A DNA stretch of 64,000 nucleotides from NCBI GenBank assembly GCA_019090895.1, contig JAHRVB010000142.1:1-64000 (forward strand), in the 5' to 3' direction. The notes under the pieces are model-generated. The model searched no databases, had not been told where the DNA came from, and saw only the letters and a list, made by a program, of their open reading frames with translations. The number at the start of each line of letters is the position of its first letter. Position 1 is the stretch's first letter. Position numbers and translations under genes: made by a program. The DNA is from Kangiellaceae bacterium (GTDB lineage Bacteria > Pseudomonadota > Gammaproteobacteria > Enterobacterales > Kangiellaceae). This document shows, in pieces, positions 4,449 through 10,191 of the stretch.

Positions 4449-5042
4449 ATGAGAAAACTAAACCACACCTTGCTACTTTTAACTATATTTGCTGCAAGCC
4501 TCCTTACGTCATCAGCCAATGCGAAAGGCCCCGCTGGAACGGTATTATACTTTCAGCAGGGCGAACAAGTATTTCTGCTACTAGCCGATCACTCTAGCAA
4601 TTCCCGAGGTTGGGGATCTTTTGGAGGCGGAGAAAATAAAGGTGAAACTTCAATAGAGACGGCTGCACGAGAAACCGAAGAAGAAACCCGTGGATATTTT
4701 CCACGAGAACTAATCGAACAAAAAATAGCAGGACAAAAACCAGTTGTATCTAAAGGATTCTCTCTTTATTTTGTAGAAATCCCTTTTGTACCCGCACAAC
4801 GGATCAGAAATAATCCTAGCGATAAATCCGACAAGAGCACCTTTGAACGCGATCACTATGCTTGGATACCCTTTTCAGAAGTTAAGAAGGCAATCAATAA
4901 AAGGAACCCATCTATTCACGATTTAAAAATCAACTCCCTTTATCTTTCTCGCGGAACAAAAACTAACTTTTTCTGGGATGTTTGGATACAGAATATGCGA
5001 CACGCTGCCGAACAGGGTGTGGTACCTTGGGAAGTTCAATAA
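4449..5042 (+). CDS. Exported Nudix-domain protein
   Basis: 197 residues. A clear signal peptide (HTLLLLTIFAASLLTSSANA) is followed by a Nudix box, GGGENKGETSIETAARETEEE, which fits G-x5-E-x7-RE-x2-EE apart from Arg in place of the last Gly. Nudix enzymes hydrolyse nucleoside-diphosphate-linked substrates and normally act in the cytoplasm, so export is unusual. No strong Shine-Dalgarno is visible. The stop overlaps the 3' end of the convergent HNH gene by 7 bases. Confidence 0.7.
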   Translation: MRKLNHTLLLLTIFAASLLTSSANAKGPAGTVLYFQQGEQVFLLLADHSSNSRGWGSFGGGENKGETSIETAARETEEETRGYFPRELIEQKIAGQKPVVSKGFSLYFVEIPFVPAQRIRNNPSDKSDKSTFERDHYAWIPFSEVKKAINKRNPSIHDLKINSLYLSRGTKTNFFWDVWIQNMRHAAEQGVVPWEVQ

Positions 5043-5590
5043 CGCATATTATTGGAAAATTCTTTGGTTAAGAAATCCATTTGATCGGCAAAAATATTTC
5101 TATTACAAAAAGCTAAGTACTCTGCTTTGTTCGGCTTATAAGGGACGGCCAGCAAAGGCATATTCGCTTCTTCTGGCGTTCGGCATCCCTTACGATTATT
5201 ACAAGGCTTACAAGCTGTTGCAAAGTTAACCCAAGAATTTTTTCCGCCTCGCGCGCGAGGTTGGATATGGTCACAAGTTAGGGTAGAACGGCTGAATACA
5301 ACACCGCAGTACAAACACATATCGCGGTCACGTTTAAACAAAGATGCGTTACACAATCTTGGCGTACGAAGGTCGCTCTCACGAACTCGAGAGTTGGTTG
5401 CGATCACCGGCGCCATGTCTAGAATAGTTTGATTCCCCGTCATTCGAGAATGACCACCATGCAGCCGAACCGATTCGTCACCATAAGTCCATAGCACTTT
5501 ACCTTTCGCGTAAAGACACGCAGCAGTGCCCATTCCAATCCATTCCATCGCCTGCCCCGCTTTATTAAGCCGCAGGATTTTAGTTTGCAT
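5036..5590 (-). CDS. HNH endonuclease at the 3' end of the tRNA array
   Basis: 184 residues from the ATG at 5590, chosen because GAGGAG lies seven bases upstream; an earlier in-frame start adds ten residues. The C-terminal half is an HNH domain: CLYCG, then CDHIQPRARGG, then NFATACKPCNNRKG, giving two zinc-binding Cys pairs and the DH catalytic pair. The N-terminal 90 residues are uncharacterised. It lies 57 bases downstream of tRNA-Arg(TCT) on the same strand and is probably the last gene of the array transcript. HNH proteins of this size can be homing or restriction-like nucleases; the target is unknown. Confidence 0.85.
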   Translation of the reverse strand: MQTKILRLNKAGQAMEWIGMGTAACLYAKGKVLWTYGDESVRLHGGHSRMTGNQTILDMAPVIATNSRVRESDLRTPRLCNASLFKRDRDMCLYCGVVFSRSTLTCDHIQPRARGGKNSWVNFATACKPCNNRKGCRTPEEANMPLLAVPYKPNKAEYLAFCNRNIFADQMDFLTKEFSNNMRY

Positions 5591-5646: not shown

Positions 5647-5721
5647 TGGCACGCATCACAGGATTCGAACCTGTTACCGTCGGCTTAGAAGGCAGAAGCT
5701 CTATCCGAATGCGCTAGTGCC
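5647..5721 (-). tRNA. tRNA-Arg(TCT), degenerate 5' half
   Basis: The anticodon loop CTTCTAA, the T-arm ACAGG-TTCGAAT-CCTGT and an encoded CCA are clear. The 5' strand does not pair well with the 3' acceptor strand when a normal D-arm is drawn. A start at 5714 would give a paired 7-bp acceptor but removes most of the D-arm. It may be D-arm-truncated or a pseudogene. Confidence 0.6.
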
Positions 5722-5728
5722 TATCAAT

Positions 5729-5803
5729 TGGAGCGACATGCCGGATTTGAACCGACGAAATTTGGGTTTGCAATCCAATACATTTCCACTCTGTCAATGT
5801 CGC
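5729..5803 (-). tRNA. tRNA-Cys(GCA)
   Basis: Perfect 7-bp acceptor GCGACAT/ATGTCGC, T73 and encoded CCA. Loop TTGCAAA gives anticodon GCA. One mismatch closes the anticodon stem (A31-C39). Confidence 0.85.
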
Positions 5804-5831
5804 AAAAATTTTTGTAAAAATGTGACCGCTA

Positions 5832-6134
5832 TTAGCGGCCACGAAACCGATACAATCGGTTAATTGATTTAATTCCTTGTTCCATTCGCTGACGCGCTGA
5901 AACATTGGCGGAATGTACCTTAATGTTCGGCGGGATCACACCATAGTCAACCACTGCTTTTTCAAGCCAAGTAATGACATCGTAACCGGTGCCGCGTTTA
6001 TCATTTCCTAAGTCATGATCTAAACTTATATCGCTTACTGCACCTGTCATTAAAAGACTAATCGCCTCTTGTGGCCAACGAACAACTTTCCAACCAGGCG
6101 GCGCCTGACGGATATCATCTAAAAAAACTTTCAT
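5832..6134 (-). CDS. Cyclic-phosphate-processing receiver-domain protein (cREC)
   Basis: 100 residues behind an excellent AGGAGG site. The whole protein is one receiver-like domain: MKVFLDDIR (acidic pair), ISLDHDLGND (phospho-acceptor-position Asp plus a histidine) and IKVHSAN. This matches the cREC family proposed, from genome-context work, to act on 2',3'-cyclic phosphates in RNA repair; that role is family knowledge by prediction, not proof. It sits inside the tRNA operon between tRNA-Thr and tRNA-Cys with no promoter of its own visible. It should therefore be co-expressed with the tRNAs, which suggests processing of damaged tRNA ends. Confidence 0.8.
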   Translation of the reverse strand: MKVFLDDIRQAPPGWKVVRWPQEAISLLMTGAVSDISLDHDLGNDKRGTGYDVITWLEKAVVDYGVIPPNIKVHSANVSARQRMEQGIKSINRLYRFRGR

Positions 6135-6154
6135 ACTATCCTCCTGGGTAAATT

Positions 6155-6229
6155 TGGAGCCGGTTATTGGATTCGAACCAATGTCGACTGCTTACAAGGC
6201 AGTTACTAAACCATCTCAGCTAAACCGGC
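6155..6229 (-). tRNA. tRNA-Thr(TGT)
   Basis: Perfect acceptor GCCGGTT/AACCGGC and encoded CCA. Loop CTTGTAA gives anticodon TGT. Canonical T-loop TTCGAAT. Confidence 0.93.
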
Positions 6230-6235
6230 ATAAAT

Positions 6236-6310
6236 TGGAAGCCCCGACTGGGTTCGAACCAGCGATACGAGAGTCAAAGTCTCGTGTGTTGCCAACTACA
6301 CTACAGGGCT
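6236..6310 (-). tRNA. tRNA-Gln(TTG)
   Basis: Acceptor AGCCCTG/CGGGGCT with one G-U pair and encoded CCA. Anticodon stem CGAGA/TCTCG closes loop CTTTGAC, anticodon TTG. Confidence 0.92.
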
Positions 6311-6317
6311 AAAAAAT

Positions 6318-6393
6318 TGGCACCCTTGGCAAGACTCGAACTTTCGCATCTTGGTTTCGTAGACCAAAGCTCTTCCAACTGAGCTACAAGGGT
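6318..6393 (-). tRNA. tRNA-Arg(ACG)
   Basis: Perfect acceptor ACCCTTG/CAAGGGT and encoded CCA. Stem TTGGT/ACCAA closes loop CTACGAA, anticodon ACG, which needs A34-to-inosine editing to read all CGN codons except CGG. The T-stem has one mismatch. Confidence 0.9.
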
Positions 6394-6398
6394 ATATT

Positions 6399-6473
6399 TG
6401 GTGTCTCCAATTGGATTCGAACCAATGTCTCGAGAATTTCAACCTCGCGCTAATCCAACTCAGCTATGAAAAC
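6399..6473 (-). tRNA. tRNA-Phe(GAA)
   Basis: Acceptor GTTTTCA pairs with TGGAGAC using two G-U pairs; CCA is encoded. Loop TTGAAAT gives anticodon GAA. Confidence 0.88.
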
Positions 6474-6480
6474 AATTATT

Positions 6481-6562
6481 TGGAACACGAGACGGGATTC
6501 GAACCTGCGAATGAATGACCAGATTGAAAGTCTGGTCACTTTGACCGCTCGTATACTCGTGT
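6481..6562 (-). tRNA. tRNA with anticodon TTC (Glu) on a Tyr/Ser-like body
   Basis: Perfect acceptor ACACGAG/CTCGTGT, T73 and CCA. A 7-bp stem GACCAGA/TCTGGTC closes loop CTTTCAA, anticodon TTC. The D-region (ACGAGCGGTCAAAG) looks like a class II tRNA such as tRNA-Tyr, yet the variable segment is only about 9 bases. Its charging identity is therefore uncertain. A conventional tRNA-Glu(TTC) lies next to it. Confidence 0.7.
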
Positions 6563-6568
6563 ATAAAC

Positions 6569-6644
6569 TGGTGTTCCTATGGGGATTCGAACCCCAGTAA
6601 CTTGGTAGAAAGCCAAGTGTCCTTAGCCACTAGACTATAGGAAC
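6569..6644 (-). tRNA. tRNA-Glu(TTC)
   Basis: Perfect acceptor GTTCCTA/TAGGAAC and CCA. Stem CTTGG/CCAAG closes loop CTTTCTA, anticodon TTC. The GTCTAGTGGC D-region is typical of tRNA-Glu. Confidence 0.93.
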
Positions 6645-6649
6645 ATGTT

Positions 6650-6726
6650 TGGTAGGCCGCCCGAGATTCGAACTCGGAACCTTCCGGTTAAAAGCCGGAT
6701 GCTGCTTCCAATTGAGCTAGCGACCT
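6650..6726 (-). tRNA. tRNA-Lys(TTT)
   Basis: Acceptor AGGTCGC/GCGGCCT with one G-U pair and encoded CCA. Stem TCCGG/CCGGA closes loop CTTTTAA, anticodon TTT. Confidence 0.93.
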
Positions 6727-6732
6727 AAAAAA

Positions 6733-6831
6733 TGGTAGTACTGGATTGAATCGAACAATCGACCTCCTGTGTGTAAGACAGGCGCTCTCCCAATCGTCTC
6801 ATTACGCCTACTTTTGGTGAGCTAAAGTGCT
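6733..6831 (-). tRNA. tRNA-Val(TAC) with a D-loop insertion
   Basis: Stem CCTGT/ACAGG closes loop CTTACAC, anticodon TAC; T-arm GATTG-TTCGATT-CAATC and CCA are present. The standard TAGCTCA and TGGGAGAGC halves of the D-arm are separated by about 21-23 extra bases. Taking the distal 5' end, acceptor AGCACTT pairs at 5 of 7 positions with CAGTACT. Taking the nearer 5' end gives a much poorer acceptor. The insert is nearly identical to that in tRNA-Ala (7069-7186). Confidence 0.7.
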
Positions 6832-6837
6832 AAAAAT

Positions 6838-6913
6838 TGGTCCCCAGAGCTGGTCATGATCCAGCCACCTCACGCTTATCAGGCGTGTGCTCTACCAGAT
6901 GAGCTATCTGGGG
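6838..6913 (-). tRNA. tRNA-Ile(GAT) with atypical T-loop
   Basis: Perfect acceptor CCCCAGA/TCTGGGG and CCA. Stem CACGC/GCGTG closes loop CTGATAA, anticodon GAT. The T-loop is ATCATGA rather than TTCRANN, which replaces the usual T54-A58 pair by A54/T58. Confidence 0.88.
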
Positions 6914-6988
6914 AAAACGGTCGAGTCGGACTTTCACCGTGACGGGTCTGTAGGGTGAAGCCTCGACCGACTTCACCATCGTTTTTCC
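6914..6988 (-). other. Structured spacer, possible tRNA-Asp remnant
   Basis: This 75-base gap between tRNA genes is longer than the others and folds strongly. GGTCGAG pairs with CTCGACC, and alternatively GGTGAAG pairs with CTTCACC. A CCGTCACGG stretch resembles the tRNA-Asp(GTC) anticodon region, but no normal T-arm can be drawn. No other Asp tRNA is found in the array. Confidence 0.3.
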
Positions 6989-7062
6989 TGGCGGATGTAC
7001 AAAGAATCGAACTTTGATCAAACGGTTAACAGCCGTTCGCTCTACCATTGAGCTACACATCC
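6989..7062 (-). tRNA. tRNA-Asn(GTT)
   Basis: Acceptor GGATGTG/TACATCC (one G-U) and encoded CCA. Stem AACGG/CCGTT closes loop CTGTTAA, anticodon GTT. Confidence 0.93.
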
Positions 7063-7068
7063 TAAAGT

Positions 7069-7186
7069 TGGTGGAGATGATGAGATTCGAACTCTTTCCT
7101 CTCGTAGCAATTCGAACTCTACAACTTGCAAAGCTTTTGCTCTCCCAATCGTCTAATAACGCCTACACTTGTTGAGCTACACCCCC
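7069..7186 (-). tRNA. tRNA-Ala(TGC) with D-loop insertion and duplicated T-arm-like element
   Basis: 118 bases. The outer ends pair fully: GGGGGTG with CATCTCC (G-U allowed), then A73 and CCA. Loop TTTGCAA gives anticodon TGC. The D-arm halves are separated by about 21 extra bases that match the insert in tRNA-Val at 26 of 28 aligned positions. After the anticodon arm there is an extra hairpin GTAG/CTAC containing AGTTCGAAT, a second T-loop-like sequence, before the true T-arm. Confidence 0.65.
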
Positions 7187-7206
7187 ATTCCAAACATTTT
7201 AATAAC

Positions 7207-7275
7207 TGGCATAGAGCGAGGGAATCGAACCCGTTTCTTAAGGCTTACAACCGTGTATAATCGCCGACATACTAT
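7207..7275 (-). tRNA. Degenerate tRNA-like gene, anticodon GTA or TGT
   Basis: Encoded CCA, T-loop TTCGATT and a GG-TTGTAAG-CC anticodon arm are visible. Only four outer acceptor pairs (ATAG/CTAT) plus one wobble form. A 7-base loop gives GTA (Tyr), while a shifted reading gives TGT (Thr). Short length and weak stems suggest a decaying copy. Confidence 0.45.
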
Positions 7276-7287
7276 GGCATCGTAAAT

Positions 7288-7363
7288 TGGTCGGAGGTAC
7301 AGGATTTGAACCTGTGATATACACTCCCAAAGCGTAGGTGTTACCAGACTACACTAACCTCCG
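7288..7363 (-). tRNA. tRNA-Pro(TGG)
   Basis: Perfect acceptor CGGAGGT/ACCTCCG and CCA. Stem TACGC/GTGTA closes loop TTTGGGA, anticodon TGG. Confidence 0.92.
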
Positions 7364-7373
7364 TTAATCAATT

Positions 7374-7449
7374 TGGTAGCAATGACAGGACTTGAACCTG
7401 TGCAAATTTTCGTATGAAGAAAACACTCTACCAACTGAGCTACATTGCT
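7374..7449 (-). tRNA. tRNA-Met(CAT), elongator type
   Basis: Perfect acceptor AGCAATG/CATTGCT and CCA. Stem TTTTC/GAAAA closes loop TTCATAC, anticodon CAT. The paired 1-72 position argues against an initiator. Confidence 0.88.
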
Positions 7450-7455
7450 AAAATT

Positions 7456-7530
7456 TGGTTGCGGATGACTGAATCGAACGGCCGACCAAAGGGACATGAA
7501 CCTTATATGCTTCCACAGCACTAACCCGCT
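7456..7530 (-). tRNA. CAT-anticodon tRNA, possibly initiator-like
   Basis: Loop TTCATGT gives anticodon CAT. The acceptor AGCGGGT/ATCCGCA pairs at six positions but has A1 opposite A72; bacterial initiator tRNA also has an unpaired 1-72. The 3' end CCGCAACCA matches the E. coli tRNA-fMet tail. The anticodon stem has only GG/CC next to the loop rather than three G-C pairs, so the identity is tentative. Confidence 0.7.
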
Positions 7531-7536
7531 TTAATT

Positions 7537-7611
7537 TGGAGCAAACACTGAGACTCGAACTCAGCCTTTAAGATTGGAAATCTTTCGTGCTACCGCTAAC
7601 ACTATGCTTGC
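7537..7611 (-). tRNA. tRNA-Gly(TCC)
   Basis: Acceptor GCAAGCA/TGTTTGC (one G-U), T73 and CCA. Stem AAGA/TCTT closes loop TTTCCAA, anticodon TCC. Confidence 0.9.
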
Positions 7612-7612
7612 T

Positions 7613-7696
7613 TGGTGGACAGCCCGGGTTTCGAACCCGGCACGCTATTAAGCATCGGATTTACAGTCCGAATGAGATCCAAATCTCCCGCTACCC
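7613..7696 (-). tRNA. tRNA-Tyr(GTA)
   Basis: First tRNA of the long distal block. Acceptor GGGTAGC/GCTGTCC (two G-U) and CCA; stem TCGGA/TCCGA closes loop CTGTAAA, anticodon GTA. It has a class II variable arm of about 14 bases and a short D-loop inside GAGA/TCTC. Confidence 0.9.
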
Positions 7697-7702
7697 ATAT
7701 TG

Positions 7703-7726
7703 ACGAGCATTGAATTAACTGCTCGT
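7703..7726 (-). promoter_or_regulatory. Leader hairpin before tRNA-Tyr
   Basis: ACGAGCA and TGCTCGT form a perfect 7-bp stem with a 10-base loop between the boxA-like site and tRNA-Tyr. It may be a processing hairpin of the polycistronic precursor. Confidence 0.5.
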
Positions 7727-7740
7727 ACTTTTTACGAAAA

Positions 7741-7807
7741 CTAATTATTAAAGAACGTTGCCCACAATTGAGGCAGTGTCACTACACCTTTCTGGCATTT
7801 GTGTGAC
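7741..7807 (-). promoter_or_regulatory. boxB/boxA-like antitermination leader for the long tRNA block
   Basis: On the minus strand GTTCTTTAATAATTAG (7741-7756) closely resembles the rrn boxA TGCTCTTTAACAATTTA. It is preceded by a bulged hairpin (7778-7807, GTCAC/GTGAC core) in the boxB position. In rRNA operons boxA recruits NusB-NusE for antitermination. Here it lies just after attenuator 3 and before 19 tRNAs, cREC and HNH. Confidence 0.6.
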
Positions 7808-7828
7808 TAAAGGTCCAACTATGGACAT

Positions 7829-7860
7829 AAAAAAACCCGAGGCTTTGAACTCTCGGGTTT
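7829..7860 (-). terminator. Terminator of attenuator 3
   Basis: On the minus strand ACCCGAGAG-loop-CCTCGGGT is followed by seven T residues: a strong intrinsic terminator. Its 5' arm can instead pair with upstream CTCTCGAGTTT (7868-7878). Confidence 0.9.
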
Positions 7861-7917
7861 AAATAAAAAACTCGAGAGAAACTTTTGCGTAACTCCCAAG
7901 TAAAACTTACTTTGAAG
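7861..7917 (-). promoter_or_regulatory. Attenuator 3 competing-hairpin region
   Basis: Segments in transcript order: 1 at 7917-7906 directly after the leader stop, 2 at 7903-7888, 3 at 7878-7868, and 4 at 7860-7850 (terminator 5' arm). AAGTAA/TTACTT pairs 1:2, GGGAG/CTCTC pairs 2:3 (one G-U), and CTCTCG-GTTT/AAAC-CGAGAG pairs 3:4. A ribosome at the stop would cover segment 1, favouring 2:3 and the terminator. Earlier stalling would allow 1:2 and antiterminator 3:4. Confidence 0.75.
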
Positions 7918-8046
7918 TTACGTTGGCGCACCTCTAGCACCAAAATAAATCTTGCTATTCATTTGCCCATGTTCGGGCCGTACAATCTCACACCAATGAT
8001 TTATCGGCTGTGTTAACTGCATCTGCTTTTGGCTATTTATTTTCAT
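7918..8046 (-). CDS. Leader peptide 3 of the tRNA array
   Basis: A 42-residue ORF starting MKINSQKQMQL, with GGAA four to five bases before the ATG and ending GARGAPT. It uses 19 of the 20 amino acids (only Asp absent). It lies between tRNA-Ile2 and terminator 3, and its stop codon abuts the first attenuator segment. No promoter fits in the 26 bases upstream, so it is probably transcribed by readthrough of attenuator 2. The position and broad composition fit a codon-sampling attenuation peptide rather than a stable protein. It precedes the block with Tyr, Gly, Met, Pro, Ala, Asn, Ile, Val, Lys, Glu, Phe, Arg, Gln, Thr and Cys tRNAs. Confidence 0.7.
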   Translation of the reverse strand: MKINSQKQMQLTQPINHWCEIVRPEHGQMNSKIYFGARGAPT

Positions 8047-8072
8047 AGTTTCCAATTTTATCTACGTTAATT

Positions 8073-8149
8073 TGGTGGGCCTGCTCAGATTCGAACTGAG
8101 ACTCTACCGATTATGAGTCGGTTGCATTAACCAATTATGCTACAGGTCC
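8073..8149 (-). tRNA. tRNA-Ile2 (CAT, probable lysidine type)
   Basis: Acceptor GGACCTG/CAGGCCC with one A-C mismatch, A73 and CCA. Stem ACCGA/TCGGT closes loop CTCATAA, anticodon CAT. C4-G69 and C5-G68, and the CGACTCATAATCG anticodon arm shared with E. coli tRNA-Ile2, fit known TilS recognition. It would then read ATA. It stands alone between attenuators 2 and 3. Confidence 0.8.
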
Positions 8150-8165
8150 AACTTATATTTTTGGC

Positions 8166-8204
8166 AAAAAAAAGCCCTGTGAAGAATATCTCAACCGGGC
8201 TTTA
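8166..8204 (-). terminator. Terminator of attenuator 2
   Basis: Minus-strand AAAGCCC-19-base loop-GGGCTTT followed by a T-run. It sits 17 bases upstream of tRNA-Ile2, so it can only serve that tRNA as an attenuator or end an upstream transcript. Confidence 0.85.
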
Positions 8205-8249
8205 GATTCGGTTCGAGACTTCAGTTAAGCCTCGAATTATTGTTCAAAG
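8190..8249 (-). promoter_or_regulatory. Attenuator 2 competing-hairpin region
   Basis: Segments in transcript order: 0 at 8249-8243, four bases after the leader stop; 1 at 8236-8227; 2 at 8221-8209; 3 at 8198-8190, overlapping the terminator. CTTTGAA/TTCGAGG pairs 0:1 (two G-U), TTCGAGGCTT/AAGTCTCGAA pairs 1:2 over 10 bp, and AACCG/CGGTT plus CTC/GAG pairs 2:3. A ribosome at the stop masks segment 0, giving 1:2 and termination. Earlier stalling gives 0:1 and antiterminator 2:3. Confidence 0.75.
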
Positions 8250-8253
8250 CACA

Positions 8254-8361
8254 CTACATCTTTCTATTTTCATATTGCCCAATAAATGGCATGCAACAAT
8301 ATTCAGCCGGCCAATAATTGGCCCGTTGTTTTATTTGTATTGTCGCTATTATCTGATTCAT
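8254..8361 (-). CDS. Leader peptide 2 of the tRNA array
   Basis: A 35-residue ORF beginning MNQIIATIQIKQRANYW. Four of its first ten codons are ATA, and the next tRNA downstream is the CAT tRNA predicted to read ATA. The peptide uses M, N, Q, I, A, T, K, R, Y, W, P, E, C, F and G. It has no Leu, Ser or His, which are exactly the residues served by the tRNA block upstream; it also lacks Val and Asp. The ribosome-binding site is weak (an A-rich tract). It is preceded by a consensus promoter at 8450-8478. It is read as a regulatory leader, with no stable product expected. Confidence 0.7.
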   Translation of the reverse strand: MNQIIATIQIKQRANYWPAEYCCMPFIGQYENRKM

Positions 8362-8449
8362 AAAACTTTTTTCAAACTAACTTTGTAAATTAAAATTTCC
8401 TAAACACTAAGAGATACAAGTTTTTCTTACTGCTCATTTGTTAAGTTGC

Positions 8450-8478
8450 ATTAAACCATTACAGAACTTCACTGTCAA
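8450..8478 (-). promoter_or_regulatory. Sigma-70 promoter P2
   Basis: Minus-strand TTGACA, 17-base spacer, TTTAAT. It drives leader 2, tRNA-Ile2 and, by readthrough, leader 3 and the long block. The rest of 8362-8663 is AT-rich and shows no gene. Confidence 0.8.
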
Positions 8479-8663
8479 CACCTAGACTATATTTTATTCA
8501 ATAATATCAAAGAGTTATAGAATTTGATGCACAATAAACCCTTCACCGTTTTTCGCAGTAAATATCTTTTAATATTTGAAACAGACCCATTCAATTCCAA
8601 ACCTACAACACCATTATCGAATTTTCAGTTAACAACTATTACTCCGTTTACTTTTTGGTAATT

Positions 8664-8740
8664 TGGTACGCCGCGAGGGACTCGAACCCTCAAAACCGGA
8701 GGCTTAAACCCCGTATGTATGCCAATTCCATCACCGACGC
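8664..8740 (-). tRNA. tRNA-Leu(TAA) with collapsed variable arm
   Basis: Acceptor GCGTCGG/GCGGCGT pairs at six positions with wobbles; CCA is encoded. Stem CGGGG/CTCCG closes loop TTTAAGC, anticodon TAA. The GATGGAATTGGCA D-region is Leu-like, yet the variable segment is only five bases instead of a class II arm. Confidence 0.8.
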
Positions 8741-8747
8741 ATTAAAC

Positions 8748-8836
8748 TGGAGGAGAGAAAGAGAATCGAACTCTAAAGGCTTTCGCCTTCCCTTTGCTTA
8801 GCAAGCAACGCCGATCACCATCACGGATTACTCTCC
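8748..8836 (-). tRNA. tRNA-Ser(GCT)
   Basis: Acceptor GGAGAGT/TCTCTCC pairs at six positions and CCA is encoded. Stem GTTGC/GCAAA (outermost pair mismatched) closes loop TTGCTAA, anticodon GCT. A class II variable arm AAGGC-GAAA-GCCTT is present. Confidence 0.88.
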
Positions 8837-8845
8837 AAAATAATT

Positions 8846-8938
8846 TGGCGGAAGCCGGAGGGCTCGAACCCCAAATCCTATTCAGGTACCACTGGTTTTC
8901 AAGACCAGGGCTTTGACCAACTCAAAGTTTCAACTTCC
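8846..8938 (-). tRNA. tRNA-Ser(TGA)
   Basis: Acceptor GGAAGTT/GGCTTCC (G-U allowed), G73 and CCA. Stem CTGGT/ACCAG closes loop CTTGAAA, anticodon TGA. The D-stem is extended (CTTTG/CAAAG) and a long variable arm is present. Confidence 0.88.
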
Positions 8939-8944
8939 TATATT

Positions 8945-9115
8945 TGGTACCCAGAGAGACTACTCAGACCATCCTTGGTCTTCATACATTCGTGCCATCG
9001 TCATTCTTCCGATGTTCGGCAATGCTCCTTCATTGCTCGTCGAACTCTTAATGAACGGATTCTAAATCCGCCGTGTATGCCGGACTATTTATAGCCAGCC
9101 TGGCACCACCTGGGC
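8945..9115 (-). tRNA. tRNA-Leu(TAG) with about 85 extra bases
   Basis: 171 bases. Outer ends pair fully, GCCCAGG with TCTGGGT (G-U allowed), then A73 and CCA. Stem GCGGA/TCCGT closes loop TTTAGAA, anticodon TAG. The D-loop is enlarged. The T-loop TTCGACG is followed by an insertion with three perfect hairpins (9019-9036, 8996-9014, 8966-8981) before the 3' T-stem. A functional tRNA would need removal or tolerance of this insert. Confidence 0.65.
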
Positions 9116-9141
9116 TTCATCTGTTTTTTACAAATCATCAT

Positions 9142-9218
9142 TGGGGTAACCAATCGGGTTTGAACCGATATCATCCGGACTCACAATCCGGAGCTCGACC
9201 AATTGAGCTATGGCTACC
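9142..9218 (-). tRNA. tRNA-His(GTG)
   Basis: Acceptor GTAGCCA/TGGTTAC, C73 and CCA, with an encoded G at -1, the His identity element. Stem CCGGA/TCCGG closes loop TTGTGAG, anticodon GTG. First tRNA after attenuator 1. Confidence 0.93.
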
Positions 9219-9254: not shown

Positions 9255-9286
9255 TAAAAAAACCGCAAGTTTTTGGCTTGCGGTTT
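9255..9286 (-). terminator. Terminator of attenuator 1
   Basis: Minus-strand AAACCGCAAG-7-base loop-CTTGCGGTTT followed by T residues. It lies 37 bases upstream of tRNA-His. Confidence 0.9.
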
Positions 9287-9351
9287 AAAGAATCAGGTTT
9301 AATTTAAATTCTTCTTATCCGGAAGCCTGCGCTCCCAAATAAGGAAGCGAG
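9275..9351 (-). promoter_or_regulatory. Attenuator 1 competing-hairpin region
   Basis: Segments in transcript order: 1 at 9351-9343 directly after the leader stop, 2 at 9336-9330, 3 at 9327-9319, 4 at 9283-9275 (terminator 5' arm). CGCTTCC/GGGAGCG pairs 1:2, GGGAGC/GCTTCC pairs 2:3, and GGCTTCCGG/CCGCAAGCC pairs 3:4 at eight of nine positions. A ribosome at the stop would mask segment 1, leaving 2:3 and the terminator. Stalling earlier would give 1:2 and antiterminator 3:4. Confidence 0.78.
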
Positions 9352-9483
9352 CTAGATCAACAACGAATGCTCTTTACGTGTTATTGATCCACTAAATGAA
9401 TAACCCCATAAACTGAGCACAGCAGGGCTGGAGATCCGATGATCTCTTTGCACTGTATTCAGTTGATTTAGGAATGTGTTCAT
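9352..9483 (-). CDS. Leader peptide 1 of the tRNA array
   Basis: A 43-residue ORF starting MNTFLNQLNTVQRDHR, with AAAGG about 12 bases before the ATG and ending RKEHSLLI. It uses 19 different amino acids (Cys absent). Leu (6), Ser (7) and His (2) make up 15 of 43 codons. They include CTA, CTG, CTC, TTA and TTG for Leu, and TCC, TCA, TCG, AGC and AGT for Ser. The block it precedes encodes tRNA-His, Leu(TAG), Ser(TGA), Ser(GCT) and Leu(TAA), which read these codon families. A consensus promoter lies 77 bases upstream. It is interpreted as a codon-sampling attenuation leader. Confidence 0.75.
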   Translation of the reverse strand: MNTFLNQLNTVQRDHRISSPAVLSLWGYSFSGSITRKEHSLLI

Positions 9484-9559: not shown

Positions 9560-9588
9560 AATATACCGACTTAGAATTCAACCGTCAA
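9560..9588 (-). promoter_or_regulatory. Sigma-70 promoter P1
   Basis: Minus-strand TTGACG, 17-base spacer, TATATT. It drives leader 1 and the His-Leu-Ser-Ser-Leu tRNA block. Confidence 0.85.
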
Positions 9589-9764
9589 GTGAAATTTCTT
9601 AAATACTGTTAATAATCAATATGTTACAGTTTGTGGCGTACACGAATAGATCTTCACCCTCCTTGGATAAATATTACTTCCTGGTTCATTTTATGGTTTT
9701 CATTTAAACCACTCTATCGTTTGTTGTTATATTCTTTATCACAGTTTCTCTTTTATTTAGGTGT

Positions 9765-9800
9765 AAAAAAACGCCGGTTGCTTAGTAGCTTCCGGCGTTC
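9765..9800 (-). terminator. Terminator of attenuator 4
   Basis: Minus-strand AACGCCGG-14-base loop-CCGGCGT followed by T residues. The following 176 bases down to promoter P1 hold no tRNA or convincing gene. Confidence 0.88.
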
Positions 9801-9866
9801 TTATAAAATTAAAACTTTATTTAAACTTTGGAAGCTATTCACTTCCAAATTAAGGTTGGAAGTGAA
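9786..9866 (-). promoter_or_regulatory. Attenuator 4 competing-hairpin region
   Basis: Segments in transcript order: 1 at 9866-9858 right after the leader stop, 2 at 9846-9838, 3 at 9837-9830, 4 at 9793-9786 touching the terminator 5' arm. TTCACTTCC/GGAAGTGAA pairs 1:2 (9 bp perfect), GGAAG/CTTCC pairs 2:3, and TAGCTTCC/GGAAGCTA pairs 3:4 (8 bp perfect). The order and logic match attenuators 1-3, although the antiterminator overlaps the terminator stem by only two bases. Confidence 0.7.
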
Positions 9867-9867
9867 A

Positions 9868-9993
9868 TTATCGAGGGTGCTCCCCCAATAACGATATCAT
9901 CTTATCTGCTAGACAACTGAGCACACGTGTCCAGGCAGAGATATCCCCCGCTTGAAAATAATTGCACTGTTGAATAACCGTTAAGTGAAACAA
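9868..9993 (-). CDS. Leader peptide 4 of the tRNA array
   Basis: A 41-residue reading from a TTG at 9993, beginning MFHLTVIQQCNYFQAGDI and ending GEHPR. All 20 amino acids occur. TTG was chosen because AAAGGAAGAG lies just upstream and a promoter (TTGTAT-18-TAGAAT) just before that. The frame itself is open to a GTG at 10089, giving 73 residues. No tRNA follows its terminator before the next promoter, so it is an orphan module, or the outermost gate acting by readthrough into module 1. Confidence 0.55.
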   Translation of the reverse strand: MFHLTVIQQCNYFQAGDISAWTRVLSCLADKMISLLGEHPR

Positions 9994-10022
9994 AATCGCT
10001 CTTCCTTTATTTAACTGCTCAC

Positions 10023-10052
10023 ATTCTATCGTTTTAGGTACGAAAAATACAA
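10023..10052 (-). promoter_or_regulatory. Sigma-70 promoter P4
   Basis: Minus-strand TTGTAT, 18-base spacer, TAGAAT, placed to start a transcript about 20-25 bases before the leader 4 TTG. Confidence 0.6.
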
Positions 10053-10191
10053 GCCGTTTAAATAACGAAAACTCATAAGTCCTACTCACTTCCTAATCTT
10101 GAGATTATTAGTGGACAAGATAATCAACAGTCGTTAGCCTTAACCGTAAGTGTTTTAGATAGTCAAATTTACATCAGTGACAGGGAAAGAT

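Follow-up and report, generated by a model that had tools for sequence, protein, structure and literature searches.

Layout of the orphan module and its tRNA array

The DNA analysed here, a stretch of 64,000 nucleotides referred to as the window, carries on its (-) strand an array of tRNA genes fed by leader-containing modules and, ahead of these, a module (M4) with no tRNA behind it. The leader, hairpin chain and terminator of M4, described as intact in an earlier note on this DNA, were all located on that strand together with a promoter and a ribosome site (P4, the ribosome site, leader 4, T4 and P1 were read from the sequence).

10052-9764 (-): whole orphan module M4 (promoter, ribosome site, leader, hairpin chain, terminator)
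10052-10023 (-): P4, promoter-like sequence of M4, TTGTAT (10052-10047), 18 nt, TAGAAT (10028-10023)
10008-10001 (-): ribosome site of leader 4, AAAGGAAG
9868..9993 (-): leader 4 reading frame, TTG 9993 to TAA 9868, 41 codons
9866-9786 (-): chain of complementary segments of M4
9838..9866 (-): helix a:b (a 9866-9856, b 9848-9838), 1 nt past the leader stop; by pairing and, in the GCTTCC class, by covariation
9827..9849 (-): alternative helix b:c (9849-9841 with 9835-9827); by pairing prediction
9786..9837 (-): antiterminator c:d (TAGCTTCC 9837-9830 with GGAAGCTA 9793-9786); by pairing and covariation
9764..9802 (-): intrinsic terminator T4 (d:e, 11 pairs; stem 9802-9767) with a T-run to ~9764; near-identical in relatives L021, L022 and L027
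9589..9763 (-): spacer from T4 to P1, without tRNA or terminator
9560..9588 (-): P1, promoter of module 1, TTGACG-17-TATATT
9260..9483 (-): module 1, with leader 9483-9352 (19 amino acids, Cys being absent), its chain and its terminator T1 (9286-9260)
5647..9217 (-): tRNA array supplied by the modules, running from tRNA-His (9217-9142) as far as tRNA-Arg (5647)
8361-8254 and 8046-7918 (-): leaders of modules 2 and 3, both inside the array
5832..6134 (-): cREC gene (cyclic-phosphate-processing receiver, PF20274; E = 1.9e-28), between tRNAs
5036..5590 (-): HNH endonuclease gene (PF14279; E = 2.3e-14) at the array end, in the same place in relatives' arrays

The segments of M4 are a (TTCACTTCCAA), b (TTTGGAAGTGAA), c toward b (CTTCCAAA), c toward d (TAGCTTCC) and d (GGAAGCTA), the last lying within the 5' arm and loop of terminator d:e. 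A short translatable leader with a ribosome site stands between promoter and terminator, followed by an antiterminator and a terminator that exclude each other and, by prediction and covariation, are tied to the position of the ribosome; in place of a run of regulatory codons, the leader holds all 20 amino acids. As judged from its sequence, M4 is a variant of ribosome-mediated attenuation outside the trp/his type. No Rfam family (known riboswitch, leader RNA or T-box) scored above its gathering threshold in 9560-10100. A longer reading of the leader frame, from GTG (10089-9868, 73 residues), is open but starts upstream of the promoter and was set aside; a conserved 73-residue protein from another start, which the earlier note had named as evidence against its reading, was sought and was absent from the M4 orthologues.

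The array comprises 20 tRNAs called by ARAGORN in 3.6 kb, of many isotypes, as well as degenerate ones. Degenerate or unusual tRNA-like genes not called by ARAGORN lie at 9110-8960, 8940-8845, 8835-8745, 7285-7205, 7190-7070 and 6985-6920, several of them being weak matches to a hidden Markov model (HMM) of 94 array tRNAs. The first tRNA beyond M4 is the tRNA-His from 9217, behind module 1. Nothing tRNA-like was found in the M4 spacer by ARAGORN, Rfam at a permissive E-value, BLAST or the 94-tRNA HMM, which recovers even the degenerate tRNAs of the window array, so the claim that the ~176 bases after T4 hold no tRNA was borne out.

Relatives were collected via the HNH gene at the array end, and ten arrays in all, including that of the window, were compared. 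Genes of RNA repair recurred in their company: rtcA was present in 9 of 40 genomes of the family, eight of these 9 being among the ten array genomes (a count that relatedness inflates), and in L023, L029 and L024 rtcA, a tRNA and an SPFH gene stand ahead of the array or HNH region. The order rtcBA, a tRNA with an unusual anticodon and an SPFH (slipin) gene was seen in L023, L029, L024, L060 and L063, and at L059 on contig C72 of the window's own genome; several of these loci have a further tRNA-like stretch ahead of the SPFH gene, and three genomes have this operon immediately next to the tRNA array or the HNH region. This company (rtcA, cREC, SPFH and HNH) supports, without proving, a role of the array in a response to tRNA damage or translation failure.

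HNH copies also stand alone, away from tRNAs, in genome G000 (contig C91, L025), genome G018 (contig C9, L030) and at L026, L028, L031-L034 and L037, and some share a genome with an array copy. As a marker of the switch elsewhere, the HNH gene led to relatives in another family of the order (L040-L044, L048, L049) that have no nearby tRNAs, and a contig scan returned only distant HNH relatives. An HNH relative was further observed in tRNA arrays of a Variovorax megaplasmid (L089; 33 tRNAs and a release-factor-like gene) and of the jumbo Salicola phage SCTP-2 (L090); a leader chain was sought at these two arrays and not found.

Conservation of outer modules and of the chained helices

Of the 10 arrays, 8 begin with a tRNA-less outer module (window, L021, L022, L027, L035, L036, L039 and L101, the last of which appears to run on into L038 of the same genome). 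It was not found in L023 and L029, where rtcA, a tRNA and an SPFH gene are present instead. A covariance model of M4 identified orthologues with E-values of 5e-18 to 5e-20 in four genomes of three genera. Among the four clear orthologues, identity was 63% in the chain and terminator, 39% in the leader and 35% in the spacer, relative to ~30% for shuffled sequence, and the sequence of the leader peptide was not conserved. The TTG start is common to the orthologues in L021, L022 and L027, and three orthologues have a -35/-10 pair upstream of the leader (TTGCAT-17-TAGAAT, TTGATT-17-TAGAAT and TTGATA-17-TAAAAT). An order-wide search with the class model yielded no convincing module outside the family of the window; the weaker matches that were checked elsewhere had no leader and chain.

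These comparisons bear on the proposal that M4 is a relic whose tRNAs were deleted and whose promoter, leader and switch are decaying. The window module, with no tRNA behind it, would fit such a history. However, the same arrangement recurs in most of the arrays, no tRNA follows the outer modules of relatives, eight outer-module spacers searched for tRNA remnants contained none, and the frame of leader 4 has stayed open with all 20 amino acids. Since the switch is constrained, well above leader and spacer, and the spacer is not, we reject the relic reading, which the earlier note had offered as one of two explanations and which we now consider very improbable. M4 shows neither loss of constraint nor a downstream tRNA remnant, and on this comparative evidence the tRNA-less outer module is a working part, not a fossil.

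The order of helices a:b, b:c, c:d and d:e was present at all 26 modules of the window and its relatives, which fall into clearly different sequence classes (GCTTCC, TCGAGGC and GAGG types). Helix a:b starts between -7 and +11 nt from the leader stop, mostly at 1-5 nt. When a was left free and e was not yet transcribed, c:d was predicted in 25 of 26 modules; when a was masked in the full RNA, the terminator was predicted in 25 of 26, the exception being L027, in which it was not the minimum-energy fold. For M4 itself, the equilibrium fold with a masked and e absent still favours c:d over b:c, so termination must win by kinetics or by e displacing c. In the GCTTCC class, double compensatory changes in a:b and c:d filled 14 cells, compared to 4.3 in shuffles, a signal that was lost when the partners were slid by one to three columns; b:c was 94% paired, with variation little beyond that of shuffles.

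Short reading frames are common, and one lying by a terminator with fortuitous complementarity might mimic such a module. Against chance of this kind, none of 3000 dinucleotide shuffles of the region after the M4 stop matched its chain score (3% yielded any chain), orthologues occur in three genera, and the 26 modules are alike throughout; we regard the probability of this explanation as negligible.

The M4 switch might also work for the sake of another product. The terminated RNA or its peptide could act in trans, or the spacer could harbour a small RNA or an operator; readthrough into module 1 would then be incidental. Consistent with this, no relative has a tRNA behind a module of the M4 type, and an element, TTTGAAATTGAATGGGTCTGTTTCAAA, is conserved in the spacers of L021, L022 and L027 and is almost confined in the family to these arrays; L035, L039 and L101 share another short motif in their spacers (judged by eye). 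On the other hand, the peptide is not conserved, and a trans role needs no chain ending in a switchable terminator. The GAAATTGAATGGG element is missing from the window M4 spacer and elsewhere also precedes module 2, and hence belongs to the next promoter rather than to M4. Overall, a trans or spacer product appears unlikely to be what M4 is for. The TTTGAAATTGAATGGGTCTGTTTCAAA element may be an operator or an RNA. Together with a second small hairpin, it also occurs upstream of the promoter of the following module in the window (8605-8540, (-) strand), L021 (6207 and 7094), L022, L023, L027 and L029.

A similar tRNA-less unit, followed by a second module and no tRNA, lies just after rtcA at L062 (7292-8094 oriented; genome G010, contig C45). 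Past these two tandem modules come a tandem repeat region and then a second EF-Tu-like gene, and the switch may thus control more than tRNAs. In the same genome, a second tRNA array (L068, start of contig C47) also begins with an outer module; it apparently has a promoter but no recognised second switch ahead of its first tRNA.

Amino-acid coverage of the leaders

The 41-codon reading of leader 4 from TTG does contain every amino acid, as had been noted before, and this full coverage (20 of 20) was unexpected both from coding codon usage (p = 0.005) and from random codons of equal base composition (p = 0.011). Over 28 leaders, coverage exceeded the random-codon expectation with z = 5.8, and the nine outer modules taken alone gave z = 4.6. 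The start codon is a matter of choice in several modules; with starts set by a fixed rule rather than picked by hand, coverage relative to coding usage still gave z = 5.5. A leader frame 28 codons long or longer, equipped with a ribosome site, runs up to a in all 26 modules, compared to 1.5 expected from shuffles, a contrast that is an upper estimate because the set was chosen partly for having leaders. Coverage is incomplete in some leaders, with five amino acids missing from window module 2 and three from the M4 of L021. Given its amino acids, the variety of synonymous codons in leader 4 was weakly supported (p = 0.13), and we do not claim selection on it. A GTGCTC motif in several leaders was considered as a fixed pause hairpin and dropped, its position being variable.

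The breadth of the leaders could in principle be a by-product of unconstrained codons, if M4 and related modules respond to antibiotics that inhibit translation or to a global slowing of ribosomes instead of to single missing tRNAs. Any slow elongation ahead of the stop would open the switch, and the Anabaena trn array is induced by ribosome-targeting antibiotics (PMC10272220). The excess of coverage over random codons of the same composition speaks against a by-product, as does the 3.4-fold enrichment of Cys in the leaders over coding sequences, although random DNA also yields more Cys. We judge a sensor of global slowing alone to be somewhat improbable.

Proposed serial control of the array and comparison with known systems

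M4 and module 1 lie on the same strand, and no terminator was found between T4 and module 1, so a transcript from P4 that reads through T4 is bound to run into module 1 and face the switch there. The earlier suggestion of an outer gate therefore holds in its anatomy (same strand, own promoter, no terminator before module 1), but overriding module 1 does not follow, since the attenuator of module 1 has still to be passed and the two switches stand in series. M4 would be better called an outer lock than an override. With L as the fraction that leaks past a closed switch and R as the fraction that gets past an open one, the contribution of P4 would range between L squared and R squared, and the response would be steeper than with one switch. 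The leader of module 1 has no Cys, so the inner lock should stay shut under pure Cys shortage.

Taken together, M4 is probably a functional, conserved, ribosome-controlled attenuator, the first of four in series ahead of the tRNA array, and acts as its outer lock. We infer that the leader is translated, that T4 can be read through and that the module has the physiological role proposed here. Briefly, P4 would give rise to a short RNA carrying the 41-codon leader with every amino acid. A ribosome that has read all codons would reach the stop and hide a, upon which b:c would form, d would be free and the terminator d:e would halt RNA polymerase. A stall at any earlier codon, caused by starvation, a cleaved tRNA or slowed elongation, would instead allow a:b and c:d to form, and no terminator. 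For a leader that samples all amino acids, the stop codon is where such a decision would have to be made. Polymerase reading through would then cross the spacer into module 1, where the paralogous switch would decide again before the tRNAs, and P4 would feed the array only with both switches open, for which low leakage and steep induction are expected. Absence of any translation should also give readthrough.

A broader proposal, to which we give no more credence than to its opposite, is that these modules form a family of any-codon attenuators, in which leaders sample the whole amino-acid set, the five-segment chain turns a stall at any codon into readthrough, and a replacement set of tRNAs is made upon any tRNA failure; the extra tRNA-less module would serve as a second serial lock, and a switch of the same type would stand beside an RNA repair gene. 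Arrays of tRNA genes occur widely among bacteria, but for very few of them is it known what turns them on; here, the regulation can be read from DNA. The modules would sense failed decoding in general, by means of nothing but a leader peptide and RNA pairings, and supply spare tRNAs in response; they offer a testable link between tRNA damage (by anticodon nucleases, starvation or antibiotics) and tRNA replacement as well as a natural design for a reporter of any-codon stalls. The orphan M4 indicates that the switch can stand apart as a unit and is used in series.

In the open-access literature, to which this provisional statement is limited, no all-amino-acid leader peptide was found described. 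The tRNA array units of mycobacteria and their phages (PMC5966550) resemble the window array in combining dense tRNA arrays with an HNH endonuclease gene, but differ in that no regulatory leaders are described for them, the words "promoter" and "terminator" being absent from that text. The RtcR-controlled RNA repair operon of Salmonella (PMC7790460) answers damaged tRNA and contains rtcBA with a tRNA-like RNA, comparable to the relatives here in which a tRNA or tRNA-like sequence comes after rtcA, together with an SPFH gene next to the array; there, however, a protein switch reads tRNA fragments, rather than a ribosome stalling on a leader. The trn operon of Anabaena 7120 is likewise an array of spare tRNAs that is normally silent and responds to translational stress, and it shares its regulon with rtcB and with genes for a slipin-family protein and an HNH endonuclease (PMC10272220), the same kinds of partner as around arrays of the window type, but it is controlled by a protein repressor, TrcR, with no mention of leader peptides or attenuators.

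M4 shares with the trp and his leaders of enterobacteria (PMC1183508) a leader peptide, mutually exclusive hairpins, an intrinsic terminator and a decision made by ribosome position. Those leaders have runs of one or few regulatory codons and biosynthetic genes as targets, whereas in M4 all 20 amino acids are spread over the leader, the target is a tRNA array and one added segment shifts the point of decision to the stop codon. In trp, absent translation leads to termination and the control codons are confined to a narrow window (PMC1183508, and as is generally known). The Salmonella mgtCBR leader (PMC3641672) resembles M4 with module 1 in having two leader-ORF attenuators in one upstream region; in mgtCBR, both act within one leader and respond additively to two different signals (ATP and proline), whereas M4 and module 1 are paralogous, have a promoter each and seem to read one signal twice in series.
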